This document shows, piece after piece, positions 1,411 through 6,854 of a stretch of 64,000 bases of DNA. A model generated the notes under the pieces. The model did no database searches. It saw only the letters and a list, made by a program, of their open reading frames with translations, and had not been told where the DNA came from. This DNA is from Algibacter pectinivorans (GTDB lineage: Bacteria > Bacteroidota > Bacteroidia > Flavobacteriales > Flavobacteriaceae). The translations under genes were made by a program, and so were the position numbers. The DNA is taken from assembly GCF_900112595.1 (NCBI RefSeq), contig NZ_FOMI01000004.1, positions 124,001 through 188,000 of the forward strand. The letters are read 5' to 3'. The stretch's first letter is position 1, and each line of letters opens with the position of its first letter.

Positions 1411-2307
1411 TTATACACTGGTTAATTCTCTAAATAAGGTTTCTAAACTGGTGTTTTTTTGATTAAGCTGAAGGATTTTTAACTCGTTGTCATGGGCAAA
1501 ATCAAATACGTACGAGCGCATATCTTCTGAGGTTTTAAAAGTGATTTCGTAAACAAAATCATAGGTGTTTACCACTTTACTAACCTTTGGTAATTTTAGT
1601 AAAAAAGCGTCTTCAACACGGTAATCAAACTCTACAATAACCACTTGTTCCTTTTCGTCGCGTAGGTCTTTTAATTTTTTATCTGCTACTATTTCGCCTT
1701 TATTAATAATAATAACACGGTCGCACATGGCTTCAACCTCTTGCATTATATGTGTAGAAAGAAATACAGTTTTGGTGGTGCCTATAGATTTTATAAGGTT
1801 TCTAATATCTACTAATTGGTTTGGGTCTAAACCGGTTGTTGGTTCGTCTAAAATTAAAACTTCTGGATCGTGCAGTAAGGCATTAGCTAAACCTACTCGT
1901 TGCCGATACCCTTTAGATAGCTCTCCAATTTTTTTGTGAGCTTCTGGTGTTAGGCCAGTTAATTCAATGACTTCATCTATACGGTTTTTGCTAACACCAT
2001 AAATATTTGCATTGAAGCTTAGATACTCCTTTATATACTGCTCTAAATATAAAGGGTTATGTTCTGGAAGGTATCCAACACTCTGTTGTACGGCTTTGGT
2101 GTTTGTTAGTATATCAAAACCATTTACCTTAACCGTCCCTCCGTTGGCATTAAGGTAGGTAGTTAAAATTTTCATCATGGTAGATTTACCTGCGCCATTA
2201 GGCCCTAAAAAACCAACTATTTCTGGTTTACCTACTTTAAAGGAAATGTTATTTAAAGCTTTTTGTTTTCCGTAAATTTTAGATATGTTATTAACCTCAA
2301 TAGACAT
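1411..2307 (-). CDS. gldA: Gliding motility ABC transporter ATP-binding protein GldA
   Basis: ATPase subunit of the GldAFG ABC transporter described in Flavobacterium gliding; the transported substrate is unknown. At 298 residues it shows Walker A GPNGAGKST (residues 35-43), signature LSKGYRQR, Walker B VLILDEPTTGLD and the switch histidine in STHIMQEVE. A C-terminal extension of about 80 residues follows the nucleotide-binding domain. The N-terminus MSIEVNNISKIYG is typical of GldA, which separates it from generic ABC ATPases. The membrane partners GldF and GldG are not in this window; in many flavobacteria gldA stands alone. It is the last minus-strand gene before the divergent aromatic operon. 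Confidence 0.9.
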   Translation of the reverse strand: MSIEVNNISKIYGKQKALNNISFKVGKPEIVGFLGPNGAGKSTMMKILTTYLNANGGTVKVNGFDILTNTKAVQQSVGYLPEHNPLYLEQYIKEYLSFNANIYGVSKNRIDEVIELTGLTPEAHKKIGELSKGYRQRVGLANALLHDPEVLILDEPTTGLDPNQLVDIRNLIKSIGTTKTVFLSTHIMQEVEAMCDRVIIINKGEIVADKKLKDLRDEKEQVVIVEFDYRVEDAFLLKLPKVSKVVNTYDFVYEITFKTSEDMRSYVFDFAHDNELKILQLNQKNTSLETLFRELTSV

Positions 2308-2413: not shown

Positions 2414-2443
2414 TTTGATTTCTTAAATAATTAATTACTTTAG
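2414..2443 (+). promoter_or_regulatory. Promoter of the aromatic amino acid operon
   Basis: TTTG at 2414-2417, an 18 nt spacer, then TACTTTAG at 2436-2443. This matches the Bacteroidota pattern TTTG-N19-TAnnTTTG with one change in the -7 box. Transcription would begin near 2449, a few bases before the leader peptide ATG at 2454. Confidence 0.6.
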
Positions 2444-2453
2444 CCACTCAATT

Positions 2454-2537
2454 ATGACAATGACAACAGGTTATACATATTTTAGCAACTATTTCTATTT
2501 CTTTTTTAGCAAAAGAAACGAGACGCTGTATGTATAA
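2454..2537 (+). CDS. Phe/Tyr-rich leader peptide of the aromatic operon attenuator
   Basis: A 27-residue ORF beginning ATGACAATGACA and ending TAA. Ten of its 27 residues are Phe or Tyr, and nine of those fall in residues 7-18 (YTYFSNYFYFFF). It lies directly downstream of a promoter and ahead of a Rho-independent terminator that precedes pheA. This is the arrangement of classical amino acid attenuators such as the pheA and trp leaders of enterobacteria. The genes behind it make phenylalanine and tyrosine, matching the residues it would sense. The mRNA would be nearly leaderless, since the predicted transcription start is about five bases before the ATG. It probably acts through ribosome stalling, not through a peptide product. 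Composition and position are seen directly; function is inferred. Confidence 0.82.
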   Translation: MTMTTGYTYFSNYFYFFFSKRNETLYV

Positions 2538-2590
2538 TTTATAGGTATAAATTAAAGTATGAGTCTCGATGAAAATCGAGACTTTTTTTT
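2519..2590 (+). promoter_or_regulatory. Attenuator: antiterminator arm plus Rho-independent terminator
   Basis: The terminator is a perfect 9 bp stem (AGTCTCGAT 2562-2570 with ATCGAGACT 2575-2583), a GAAA loop and a T run to 2590. A second copy of its 3' arm core, CGAGAC, lies at 2519-2524 inside the leader ORF and can pair with GTCTCG at 2563-2568 instead, preventing the terminator. A ribosome stalled in the Phe/Tyr codons (2472-2507) would leave 2519-2524 free and favour read-through. A ribosome reaching the stop at 2535-2537 would cover it and let the terminator form. About 59 nt then separate the T run from pheA. Confidence 0.82.
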
Positions 2591-2649
2591 GTTTAACCTT
2601 TAATGCATTTAATAGTAATTTAAAGTAAAATAGTATTAAAAATTAAGTT

Positions 2650-3477
2650 TTGATAAACAAAGTAGCCATACAAGGTGTAATAGGATCTTTTCATCACATT
2701 GTGTCGCAGGAGTTTTTTAGTAACCCTGTAGATGTTATAGAGTGTATGACTTTTGATAGAGTTGTAGACGCTCTAATTACTAAAGAATGTGATGCTGCTA
2801 TTATGGCTTTAGAGAATTCTATTGCGGGTTCTATAATTCCTAATTATGCATTAATTGATAAGTATGGTTTACATATTGTTGGGGAGCATTATTTGGATAT
2901 ACAGCATAATTTAATGGGGTTGCCAAATCAAAATATCGAAGATATTAAAGAAGTGTATTCGCACCCAATGGCCTTATTGCAATGTAAAGCGTTTTTTAAG
3001 CAATATCCGCATATTAAACTGGTTGAAGATAAAGATACTGCCGAGGTTGCACGACGTATACAAGAAAAAAATATACCAGGTATTGGTGCCATTGCTAGTG
3101 TTAAAGCAGCCGAAATTTTCGAGTTAGATATTTTAGCACATAGCATACAAACTATTAAACATAACGAAACGCGTTTTGTTATTGTAAAGCGTAAAAATGC
3201 TGAGGTATTAGAAAGTGAAATAAATAAAGCTTCGGTTAAGTTTGAAGCTAACCATAAAAGAGGGAGTCTTGCCACTATTTTAAATGTAATGAGCGATTGT
3301 AAGCTTAATTTAACAAAAATTCAATCTTTACCAATCGTGGAGACCCCATGGAAGTATGCATTTTTTGTAGATGTAACTTTCGAGAATTATTTAGACTTTA
3401 AAAAAGCAAAATCTGTAATAGATATTATGGGCGACGATTTTAAAGTGTTAGGAGAATATAAAAATGCCAAGATATGA
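2650..3477 (+). CDS. pheA: Prephenate dehydratase
   Basis: Converts prephenate to phenylpyruvate in phenylalanine synthesis. It is 275 residues, the size of a monofunctional enzyme without a fused chorismate mutase. The periplasmic-binding-like catalytic part carries GVIGSFHH near residues 9-16, ALENSIAGSI (53-62) and the essential TRF motif (174-176). An ACT domain from about residue 195 contains GSLATILNVMSD and IQSLP, the usual site for Phe feedback inhibition. The start is TTG at 2650; no in-frame ATG fits the conserved N-terminus better. The last codon overlaps the next start by 4 bp (ATGA at 3474-3477), indicating translational coupling. Expression should be controlled by the attenuator just upstream. 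Confidence 0.93.
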   Translation: MINKVAIQGVIGSFHHIVSQEFFSNPVDVIECMTFDRVVDALITKECDAAIMALENSIAGSIIPNYALIDKYGLHIVGEHYLDIQHNLMGLPNQNIEDIKEVYSHPMALLQCKAFFKQYPHIKLVEDKDTAEVARRIQEKNIPGIGAIASVKAAEIFELDILAHSIQTIKHNETRFVIVKRKNAEVLESEINKASVKFEANHKRGSLATILNVMSDCKLNLTKIQSLPIVETPWKYAFFVDVTFENYLDFKKAKSVIDIMGDDFKVLGEYKNAKI

Positions 3478-4619
3478 TTGAACCAGCTATAAGGTTACAA
3501 ACGGTTGAAGAATATTACTTTTCTAAAAAATTAAGAGAAGTAAACTTGCTTATTGCAAACGGAAAACCGGTTATAAACCTAGGTATTGGGAGTCCAGATT
3601 TACAACCACCAAAAAAGGTGTTATCTGCTATTTCTGCAAGTTTTGAAAACCCAATAGCTCATAAATACCAGAGTTACCAGGGATTACCAGAACTAAGAGA
3701 TGCCATATCGCGTTTTTATAAAGATCAGTTTTCGGTAAATATTAGTCCGAGTACAGAGGTTTTACCGTTAATGGGAAGTAAGGAAGGTATTATGCATATT
3801 TCTATGGCCTACTTAAATGAAGGCGATGAAGTTTTAATTCCTAATCCTGGATACCCAACCTACCAATCGGTTACAAAATTAGTAGGTGCTAAAGGTGTGC
3901 TTTACGAGTTGGATGAAGCTAATAACTGGATGCCAGATTTTAAAGCTTTAGAAAGCCAAGATTTAAGTAAAGTGAAGCTAATGTGGGTTAATTATCCGCA
4001 TATGCCAACAGGAGCAAAACCTACTAATTATGTTTTTGAAGAGTTAGTAGCATTTGGTAAGCGTCATAATATTTTAATAGTTAATGATAATCCGTATAGT
4101 TTTATTTTAAACGATGCCCCTAAAAGTATTTTAAGTGTTGAAGGCGCAAAAGAGGTGTGTTTAGAGTTAAACTCTTTAAGTAAAACCTTTAATATGGCCG
4201 GATGGCGTGTAGGAATGGTTTTAGGATCTAGCGAGCATATTAGTAATATTTTAAAAGTAAAAAGTAATATGGATTCTGGTATGTTTTACGGCATACAAAA
4301 AGGGGCTATTGAGGCTTTAAAATGTTCTAGCATGTGGTTTGCTACTTTAAATAATGTGTATAAAGAACGCAGAAATTTAGTTTGGCAATTGGCCGATGCA
4401 TTAAATTGTACTTACGATAGGGAGGCTACAGGACTTTTTGTTTGGGCAAAATTACCAGCGTATTTAAAGTCTGAAGAGTTTATTGATGTAGTACTAAAAG
4501 AGAACCATATTTTTATTACACCAGGCACTATTTTTGGAACCAAAGGCGAAGGTTATATTAGGTTTTCTTTATGCGCATCGACCGAAGTTTTAGAAGAAGC
4601 TATAGCGCGAGTTAAGTAG
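3474..4619 (+). CDS. PLP-dependent class I/II aminotransferase, probably the aromatic transaminase
   Basis: A 381-residue fold-type I aminotransferase. SLSKTFNMAGWRVG holds the PLP lysine (K237). NYPHMPTGA (from N173) and NDNPYSF match PLP-contact regions, and the Arg in GYIRFSLC is the substrate carboxylate site. Its place between pheA and tyrA suggests it converts phenylpyruvate and 4-hydroxyphenylpyruvate to Phe and Tyr. Sequence alone does not rule out aspartate or diaminopimelate-type substrates, so I give no symbol. It overlaps pheA by 4 bp. The 128 bp to tyrA carries a repeat element. Confidence 0.88.
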   Translation: MIEPAIRLQTVEEYYFSKKLREVNLLIANGKPVINLGIGSPDLQPPKKVLSAISASFENPIAHKYQSYQGLPELRDAISRFYKDQFSVNISPSTEVLPLMGSKEGIMHISMAYLNEGDEVLIPNPGYPTYQSVTKLVGAKGVLYELDEANNWMPDFKALESQDLSKVKLMWVNYPHMPTGAKPTNYVFEELVAFGKRHNILIVNDNPYSFILNDAPKSILSVEGAKEVCLELNSLSKTFNMAGWRVGMVLGSSEHISNILKVKSNMDSGMFYGIQKGAIEALKCSSMWFATLNNVYKERRNLVWQLADALNCTYDREATGLFVWAKLPAYLKSEEFIDVVLKENHIFITPGTIFGTKGEGYIRFSLCASTEVLEEAIARVK

Positions 4620-4747: not shown

Positions 4748-5599
4748 ATGAAAAATATATACGCCATAGGAGTAGGTTTAATAGGAGGCAGTCTTGCTAT
4801 TGATATTAAGAAGCATAATCCGGATGTGATTATTCATGGTATTAGTAGAAAAGATGCTACACTAGAAAAAGCCTTGGAACTCGGTTTAATTGATAAAAAA
4901 GCAACTTTAGACGATCTTGGAAATGCCGATTTGGTTATTGTATCTATTCCGGTAGATGCTACGGTAAAATTGCTACCAACCATTTTAGATAAAATATCGG
5001 ATACTGGTTTAGTGGTTGATGCAGGTTCTACTAAAGAAGCGATTTGTAAAGTGGTTGAAAATCACCCAAAACGTCGTAACTTTTTAGCGATGCATCCTAT
5101 TGCAGGAACAGAACACTCGGGACCTACAGCAGCTATTGAAGGTTTGTTTATTGGGAAAACAAATATTGTTTGTGAGGTTGAAAAAACAACATTTAAGCTA
5201 CAGGAAAAAGCATTAAAGTTGTTTACAGATATTGGTATGCGCATTCGTTATATGAACCCTAAAGATCATGATAAACACATTGCTTATGTGTCGCATTTAT
5301 CGCACATTAGTTCGTTTATGCTAGGTAAAACGGTAATTGATAAGGAACGTAATGAGCGCGATATTTTTGATATGGCAGGAAGTGGATTTGCATCTACGGT
5401 GCGTTTGGCTAAAAGTTCGCCCGAAATGTGGACACCTATTTTTAAGCAAAATAAAGCCAATGTGGTGGAAACTTTAGAGGAGTATATAAATAATTTAACG
5501 CATTTTAAGGAGTTAATGAAAAGTGATAACTTTGACGAGATTTTTAATGAAATGCAAAACACCAATCATATTAAAGATATTTTGAATGGTATTGTTTAA
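4748..5599 (+). CDS. tyrA: Prephenate dehydrogenase
   Basis: Oxidative decarboxylation of prephenate to 4-hydroxyphenylpyruvate, the tyrosine branch. It has 283 residues with the NAD(P) Rossmann motif GVGLIGGS (8-15), then AMHPIAGTEHSGP, the conserved HPxxGxExSG region of TyrA, and a helical dimerisation part carrying HIAYVSHLSHISSF. There is no chorismate mutase or ACT domain, consistent with that activity being fused to the DAHP synthase two genes away. The ATG at 4748 immediately follows a repeat element. Third gene of the attenuated operon. Confidence 0.92.
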   Translation: MKNIYAIGVGLIGGSLAIDIKKHNPDVIIHGISRKDATLEKALELGLIDKKATLDDLGNADLVIVSIPVDATVKLLPTILDKISDTGLVVDAGSTKEAICKVVENHPKRRNFLAMHPIAGTEHSGPTAAIEGLFIGKTNIVCEVEKTTFKLQEKALKLFTDIGMRIRYMNPKDHDKHIAYVSHLSHISSFMLGKTVIDKERNERDIFDMAGSGFASTVRLAKSSPEMWTPIFKQNKANVVETLEEYINNLTHFKELMKSDNFDEIFNEMQNTNHIKDILNGIV

Positions 5600-5771: not shown

Positions 5772-6854
5772 ATGGAAAACACAAAAAAAATGAGAACCTG
5801 GTTAGATGATTTAAATTTAGATCATCCGTTAGTAATTGCAGGTCCATGTAGCGCAGAAACAGAAGAGCAAGTATTAAAAATTGCTCACGAATTGAAAGAT
5901 ACAGATGTAAGCTATTTTAGAGCTGGGATTTGGAAACCAAGAACTAGACCTGGAATGTTTGAAGGTGTTGGTGCTTTAGGTTTGAAATGGTTACAAAAAG
6001 TTAAGGCCGAAACAGGAATGAAAGTGTGTACGGAGGTTGCTAATGCGGCTCATGTAAAATTAGCTTTAGAGCATGATATTGATTTATTATGGATTGGTGC
6101 ACGTTCTACAGTGTCTCCTTTTATTATGCAAGAGATTGCTGATGCTTTAAAAGGTACTGATAAACCAGTACTAATTAAAAACCCAGTAAATCCAGATTTA
6201 GCTTTATGGTTAGGTGGTATAGAAAGAATTTATACGGCTGGTGTTAAAAATATTGGTGCGATACATAGAGGTTTTTCTACTTACGAAAAAACGAAATATA
6301 GAAATACTCCAGAATGGCAATTGGCTATCGAGTTTCAAAATAAATTCCCTGATATTCCATTAATTAACGACCCATCGCATATTACAGGAAAGAGAGATAT
6401 GATTTTTGATGTTTCGCAAACGGCTTTAGATTTAAACTTTGATGGTTTAATGATTGAAACGCACTACGATCCTGAAAATGCTTGGAGTGATGCTGCACAA
6501 CAGGTTACACCGTCTACCTTAGTTCAAATTATGAAAGATTTGAAAATTAGAAAAGAGTCTAATGCAGAAGCAGAATACAATAGTTCTTTAGAGAATTTAA
6601 GAGCTCAAATTGATGTTGTTGATAATCAAATTCTTGAATTATTAGGTAAAAGAATGAAAACTTCAGACAACATTGGTGCCCTTAAAAAGCAAAAAAACGT
6701 TGCGGTTTTACAATCTAAACGTTGGAACGAAATTTTAGGTAAAATGGTACTTGAAGGTGAGCAACATGGTTTAAGTGAAGAGTTTATCTTGAAAATGTTT
6801 AAAGCGGTTCATCAAGAATCTATTAACCATCAAGAAAAAGTGATTAACGGATAA
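5772..6854 (+). CDS. Bifunctional DAHP synthase / chorismate mutase (type II, C-terminal mutase)
   Basis: Joins the first step of the shikimate pathway (phosphoenolpyruvate plus erythrose 4-phosphate) to the chorismate-to-prephenate step. Of 360 residues, about 15-265 form the type I-beta DAHP synthase barrel: AGPCSAE, the catalytic-site segments FRAGIWKPRTRPG and KNPVNPD, and NDPSHITGKR. Residues about 270-355 form an AroQ-class mutase (LRAQIDVVDNQILELLGKR, then the KK and E positions). The order synthase-then-mutase is that of the Porphyromonas gingivalis type enzyme, in which the mutase domain also acts as the allosteric sensor. It is the last gene of the operon and is followed by a strong terminator. 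Confidence 0.92.
   Translation: MENTKKMRTWLDDLNLDHPLVIAGPCSAETEEQVLKIAHELKDTDVSYFRAGIWKPRTRPGMFEGVGALGLKWLQKVKAETGMKVCTEVANAAHVKLALEHDIDLLWIGARSTVSPFIMQEIADALKGTDKPVLIKNPVNPDLALWLGGIERIYTAGVKNIGAIHRGFSTYEKTKYRNTPEWQLAIEFQNKFPDIPLINDPSHITGKRDMIFDVSQTALDLNFDGLMIETHYDPENAWSDAAQQVTPSTLVQIMKDLKIRKESNAEAEYNSSLENLRAQIDVVDNQILELLGKRMKTSDNIGALKKQKNVAVLQSKRWNEILGKMVLEGEQHGLSEEFILKMFKAVHQESINHQEKVING

Follow-up and report, generated by a model that had tools for sequence, protein, structure and literature searches.

A putative Phe/Tyr leader-peptide attenuator conserved upstream of pheA in Algibacter pectinivorans and related Flavobacteriaceae

The DNA analyzed here (the window, a stretch of 64,000 nt from Algibacter pectinivorans) carries on its plus strand pheA, an aminotransferase gene that overlaps it, tyrA, and a gene for a fusion of DAHP synthase with chorismate mutase; these four genes act together in the synthesis of Phe and Tyr. 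The window PheA finds its best named match in Algibacter amylolyticus, at 98% identity. A sequence-only reading had placed a promoter, a leader ORF, a duplicated CGAGAC segment, and a terminator, in this order, upstream of pheA, and all of these attenuator parts, the promoter as a pair of promoter-like boxes, were confirmed as present:

1411 to 2307, minus strand: gldA, divergent neighbor
2414 to 2417, plus strand: −33-like box TTTG, 18 nt from the −7-like box (sequence)
2436 to 2443, plus strand: −7-like box TACTTTAG (sequence), one departure from the published TAHHTTTG (PMC6847099, in part)
2448 to 2449, plus strand: predicted transcription start, 5 to 6 nt before the leader ATG (from the 4- to 5-nt gap in F. 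johnsoniae)
2454 to 2537, plus strand: leader peptide ORF of 27 codons, reading MTMTTGYTYFSNYFYFFFSKRNETLYV (sequence)
2468 to 2480, plus strand: segment 1, which would pair with 2528-2540 if untranslated (fold)
2472 to 2507, plus strand: control codons, nine Phe/Tyr in twelve, residues 7-18 (sequence)
2519 to 2542, plus strand: segment 2, 5′ side of the antiterminator, comprising 2519-2524, 2527-2531, and 2535-2542 (fold)
2547 to 2570, plus strand: segment 3, 3′ side of the antiterminator, whose end (2561-2570) is the 5′ arm of the terminator (fold)
2561 to 2590, plus strand: intrinsic terminator, stem 2561-2570/2575-2584 with a GAAA loop (sequence and fold, −13.8 kcal/mol)
2650 to 3477, plus strand: pheA, prephenate dehydratase, with a TTG start at 2650
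3474 to 4619, plus strand: aminotransferase (class I/II), overlapping pheA
4748 to 5599, plus strand: tyrA, prephenate dehydrogenase
5772 to 6854, plus strand: DAHP synthase fused to chorismate mutase

The leader ORF matched its earlier description, since its 27 residues include ten Phe/Tyr codons (residues 7, 9, 10, 13-18, and 26), nine of which fall within residues 7-18, and its stop codon lies at 2535-2537. The CGAGAC at 2519-2524, which had been proposed to pair with the 5′ arm of the terminator, is repeated at 2577-2582 and is indeed complementary to GTCTCG at 2563-2568. The terminator, earlier called perfect, has the stem, the GAAA loop, and a T run (all T at 2583-2590), but its outermost pair is G-U; a search of the genome that tolerated up to 3 mismatches matched it once. 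Two hallmarks of an attenuator, a cluster of product codons in a leader ORF and an intrinsic terminator between the leader and the first gene, were found at this locus.

The folds computed for this RNA compete with one another. The helix between segments 1 and 2, with its inner part, reached −17.1 kcal/mol. Segments 2 and 3 could form an antiterminator of three helices (2519-2524/2563-2568, 2527-2531/2557-2561, and 2535-2542/2547-2554), which at −13.8 kcal/mol is exactly as stable as the terminator, and the two structures have 2563-2568 in common.

A terminator in the 5′ region is a layout common to riboswitches, T-boxes, and protein-controlled leaders, and control by one of these was considered as an alternative. 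Rfam holds leader-peptide families for Phe, Trp, His, and similar amino acids. When positions 2200-2900 were searched (E up to 10), no family, T-box and riboswitch models included, reached its gathering score, and among 11 weak matches, the top one being PyrR with 25.1 of 54 bits, there was no amino-acid leader-peptide family; by eye, no further conserved structured segment was noticed in the family outputs either. We therefore regard a riboswitch, a T-box, or a regulatory protein as a highly improbable controller of this terminator, and the absence of any Rfam family match indicated that the pheA element is probably unannotated.

The locus was then compared with a close set of 110 PheA loci (80 named contigs and 30 others, some of them from the same genome), which contained 95 distinct leader stretches. 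On the 80 named contigs the aminotransferase gene lies downstream of pheA in all 80, tyrA in 79, and the DAHP synthase gene, whole or partial, in 76, while gldA is divergent upstream in 79; because gldA is divergent, the terminator is not the end of an upstream plus-strand gene. Exactly one such terminator was found at each of the 110 loci, the ORF was called in 93 of the 95 distinct loci, and the antiterminator loop forms a hairpin of its own in 89 of the 95. Counted from a conserved ACATAT, the last Phe codon is reached after 27, 30, 33, or 39 nt in 90 of the 93 ORFs, the remaining three giving 93, 97, and 102 nt, where the ACATAT anchor probably lies elsewhere. The spacer to the terminator, by comparison, takes every length from 52 to 58 nt, and such a contrast between in-frame indels in the ORF and indels of any length in the spacer is the mark of a translated ORF.

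In the family set, 149 genomes were searched and 130 had pheA (PheA identity down to 44%). All 130 upstream regions were read, and the test called for no fewer than 6 Phe/Tyr among 12 codons of an ORF, with a terminator after it, inside 360 nt. This test was passed by 124 of the 130 genomes, 98 of them with at least 8 Phe/Tyr of 12 codons, which upheld the expectation that the leader ORF and its Phe/Tyr codons would be conserved in Flavobacteriaceae. None of the 130 reverse strands passed, and since none of 390 dinucleotide shuffles yielded both elements, the combination of leader and terminator is more than chance. Of the six misses, L158 has its leader further upstream (at −463), L024 ends at a contig boundary with only the last part of the leader in 128 nt of upstream sequence, and no such leader was apparent in L120, L181, L196 (379 nt available), and L200. 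Of ten loci scored as "none" in an early scan, six (L112, L118, L128, L138, L187, and L194) show a leader by eye and pass the cutoff of at least 6 of 12. With a stricter cutoff, 11 of 17 further family loci (L211-L226 and L231) had a leader and L212-L217 were missed, two of which (L212 and L217) show it by eye. Outside the family, 24 genomes in a set from the same class had pheA and 23 of these were read; two genomes from a further family within the order lay outside this reading. Leader plus terminator were found within 400 nt in 17 of the 23 (shuffles, 0/460), with L230, counted as a miss, showing a Phe/Tyr run and a terminator by eye. Of 127 other genomes of the phylum with a match, 8 were read, and 3 of these passed under the same 400-nt limit (shuffles, 0/160).

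The promoter is of the Bacteroidota type (TTTG-N18-TACTTTAG, 2414-2443), and this match is the only mismatch-free one in the window; by pattern alone it barely stands out, since 8 matches with at most one mismatch were counted in the 64,000 nt versus 7.7 expected. In the close set, a TAnnTTAG box is present in 87 of the 95 distinct loci, reads exactly TACTTTAG in 75 of those 87, and has TTTG exactly 18 nt upstream in 71, so the box pair recurs as predicted. In F. johnsoniae, many transcripts begin 4 or 5 nt past the −7 element (PMC6847099, in part). As the −7-like box in the window ends 10 nt before the leader ATG, such a gap would leave a 5′ UTR of 5 to 6 nt, and the leader mRNA is thus predicted to be near-leaderless. 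For F. johnsoniae transcripts with a probable promoter, 87% have a 5′ leader longer than 10 nt and the mean is 33 nt (PMC6847099, in part), and about 3.7% of the 5′ UTRs of B. thetaiotaomicron are shorter than 10 nt (PMC7366714, in part). From the box to the first ATG, the 87 close loci show 10 nt in 50, 11 nt in 8, and 16 nt in 16, with the rest scattered (10-11 nt in 58 of 87; 16-17 nt in 17 of 87), and in the wider family the gap is mostly 10 or 16-19 nt. In 114 of 125 family leaders, a looser box, TAnnTTnG/C, precedes an in-frame ATG by 5-22 nt, and by eye the gap is longer in L138 and L212, from one well-sampled genus taken for Flavobacterium. The earlier proposal of a start about five bases before the ATG hence agrees with the 5 to 6 nt predicted for the window, but near-leaderless spacing is not universal among the relatives. 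At four loci (L019, L097, L102, and L104) the usual promoter is absent and a common stretch around GTTGCATGT is seen instead, which is perhaps another promoter or an operator.

Across the family, the terminator arms differ (GTCTCG, GTCCCG, GTCCTG, GTTCCG, TCCCG, AACCCGG, and others), and the antiterminator segment, inside or just past the ORF, changes to match its own terminator. The helix score between a leader's own antiterminator and terminator was 17.0, compared with 11.7 for foreign arms of another class. A permutation set took a single leader for each distinct 6-nt arm key (29 keys, of which some have a common core), and here the own helix scored 17.12 versus 12.11 (SD, 0.71) for permuted pairs, with none of 10,000 permutations as high, although this is not a strict probability because the sequences are related. 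Genome by genome, fewer than 5% of foreign arms scored as well as the genome's own one in only 58 of 125 cases. These results matched the prediction that the two alternative stems are conserved with covariation, and they indicated that the antiterminator is a leader-derived, covarying element that excludes the terminator.

The position of this element is tied to the control codons. In 122 of 125 leaders the antiterminator helix begins 7-15 nt past the last Phe/Tyr codon, while the stop codon ends at varying distances from that codon, between 9 and 36 nt. Given the size of the ribosome footprint, a ribosome stalled at the last control codon would just free segment 2, which would be covered by a ribosome that had reached the stop codon. 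As for codon use, the ten-codon stretches that end at the final Phe/Tyr of the 125 leaders (1,250 codons) comprise 577 Phe and 328 Tyr (together 905), 117 Asn, 76 Trp, 3 Leu, and 0 Cys; the Phe/Tyr counts are not independent because the leaders were selected for Phe/Tyr content. The dearth of Leu and Cys, each one step from Phe, within the Phe/Tyr run is informative.

These data bear on a simpler explanation, in which the hairpin is an ordinary terminator or a brake on pheA translation and the ORF a U-rich stretch that arose by chance. The Phe/Tyr run is indeed U-rich, and the terminator ends no more than 20 nt from the start of the pheA match in 47 of 125 genomes, where it could hide the start site. 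Against this explanation stand the divergent gldA, the in-frame indels, the near absence of Leu and Cys, the 0/390 shuffles, and the covariation, and we give it hardly any credence. In those 47 genomes, because of that closeness to the pheA start, the hairpin may additionally block pheA translation.

We consider it very probable that the element is a ribosome-mediated transcription attenuator that senses charged tRNA-Phe and tRNA-Tyr. The observed parts, coding constraint, covariation, spacing, and operon content give strong comparative support to a pheA attenuator predicted from sequence, and the conserved leader and codons, the covarying stems, and an operon that makes both amino acids agree with the Phe/Tyr attenuation first proposed; the start site and the later steps (leader translation, ribosome stalling, read-through) are putative. 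RNA polymerase would start about 5 nt before the leader ATG with a ribosome following. With ample Phe-tRNA and Tyr-tRNA, the ribosome would reach the stop codon and cover CGAGAC at 2519-2524, segment 3 would pair with segment 4 as the terminator, and transcription would end before pheA. Under a shortage of Phe or Tyr, the ribosome would stall at 2472-2507 and leave segment 2 exposed, and segments 2 and 3 would form the antiterminator before segment 4 is made, allowing transcription of pheA, the aminotransferase gene, tyrA, and the DAHP synthase/chorismate mutase gene.

Placing a ribosome on the first, middle, or last Phe/Tyr codon in an equilibrium folding model gave an antiterminator probability above 0.5 in 122, 122, and 123 of 125 leaders, respectively, versus 55 of 125 for shuffled-spacer controls; this test discriminates weakly and is not main evidence, and the value of zero with the ribosome at the stop codon follows from the masking itself. 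In the same model, the untranslated partial transcript favored the antiterminator (median, 0.90; probability above 0.5 in 89 of 125; 0.95 for the window), and since the ribosome-free partial RNA behaved this way, the pause hairpin was not seen to enforce termination. In full-length RNA at equilibrium the terminator won even with a stalled ribosome, so the attenuation model depends on the order of folding.

The Trp codons raise the question of whether the leader senses all three aromatic amino acids. A Trp codon lies within the Phe/Tyr run of many relatives (84 of 125 leaders), the DAHP synthase of the operon performs the first step for all three, and 76 of the 1,250 codons are Trp although the shortest path from TTT to TGG crosses Leu or Cys. 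The leader of the window, in contrast, has no Trp codon. The 84 leaders contain 85 TGG codons in all, so almost every one has a single Trp next to many Phe/Tyr codons, and that Trp might have little effect. Also, trpE has a WWW leader of its own in the same genome. Sensing of all three is accordingly a tentative proposal that we judge somewhat less probable than its opposite. Similarly, a Bacteroidota-wide, pan-aromatic attenuator with ribosome loading free of Shine-Dalgarno pairing and a 5-nt 5′ UTR, gating the Phe/Tyr operon and its DAHP synthase, is conceivable but on balance doubtful.

The attenuation mechanism at pheA is classical and already known. The E. coli pheA and pheST leaders and the trp and his attenuators are the classical cases of ribosome-mediated attenuation, and they have the same combination of a short ORF with product codons and overlapping pause, antiterminator, and terminator hairpins. 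E. coli pheL contains Phe codons and is not known to contain Tyr codons, whereas the Algibacter leader mixes both; a difference of this sort had been pointed out in the sequence-only reading. The Algibacter operon also differs from that of E. coli in making Phe plus Tyr and in including DAHP synthase/chorismate mutase, and its leader differs in having no expected Shine-Dalgarno sequence, a predicted 5′ UTR of 5 to 6 nt, and no Rfam match. In Bacteroidota, Shine-Dalgarno sequences are not expected (PMC6847099, in part).

Amino-acid leader peptides with the same mechanism have been predicted outside Proteobacteria in Actinobacteria (PMC1262725, in part) and in Firmicutes (PMC2965389, in part), and the main text of the latter gave no match to Bacteroid, Flavobacter, Gramella, or pheA. 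Within the phylum, a putative attenuator upstream of an equivalent operon of B. thetaiotaomicron, pheA>hisHb>aroAIb-aroQ>tyrA, is tabulated by Song et al. (2005), an entry taken from Merino's website (PMC1173090, Table 7, in part); in the available portion of that paper it is given without a leader peptide, codons, covariation, or a lineage survey. The earlier statement that attenuation has been studied mostly outside Bacteroidota fits the literature searched, but a B. thetaiotaomicron pheA attenuator was already listed in 2005. In the literature searched, outside which most subscription papers lie, no description of a pheA leader peptide in Bacteroidota was recognized. The present analysis adds to this a leader found across the lineage, its covariation, and a 5′ UTR predicted to be very short. 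A comparative-genomics survey of amino-acid attenuators by Lopatovskaya et al. (2010) reportedly exists, which may include Bacteroidetes and could pre-empt part of this.

Other biosynthetic operons of the same genome also have leaders, those of his and trp being of the attenuator type as judged from sequence and that of ilv probably so. The hisG leader (L259) consists of the His-rich MTFIQLHHHFHICSQAK, a terminator, and a TCAAGCG antiterminator copy, and such leaders were found at 30 of 31 family loci read (37 genomes with a match; reverse strand, 0). The trpE leader (L260) reads MNSILNNTWWWSFRN with the terminator AAGGCTTGTC..GACAAGCC, and leaders were found at 27 of 30 family loci read (40 with a match; reverse strand, 0), one of the three misses (L318) being from the genus of the window. 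In the trpE leaders, the best antiterminator helix stands at irregular distances (0-40 nt) from the last Trp codon, and the spacing rule of pheA was not seen there. By eye, the trpE terminator varies little, unlike that of pheA. Leader-peptide attenuation requires a ribosome close behind RNA polymerase, and we know of no proof of such close transcription-translation coupling in Bacteroidota. The leaders of pheA, hisG, trpE, and about half of the ilvD loci read, conserved in one family, make coupling directly testable in a phylum that initiates translation independently of Shine-Dalgarno pairing, and they could be used in Bacteroidota to report amino-acid supply. The pheA leader gains further interest from its mixed aromatic codons, its predicted short 5′ UTR lacking a Shine-Dalgarno sequence, and the coupling that it implies. 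If pan-aromatic sensing were true, amino-acid starvation at these operons would be sensed mainly by leader peptides, those of his, trp, and ilv included. The ilvD candidate (L263, at −436) reads MNLMKNCFLTTCLVYILVIIS, with 8 Ile/Leu/Val in 12 codons and a CCTTCC/GGAAGG terminator, and leaders were found at 15 of 30 family loci read (33 with a match; reverse strand, 0); it is the weakest of the four leader types because chance produces hydrophobic runs more often than runs of His or Trp. The ilvD peptides found among L324-L352 resemble one another in their runs of Ile and Val, and many of them have a GCCTTCC/GGAAGGC terminator.
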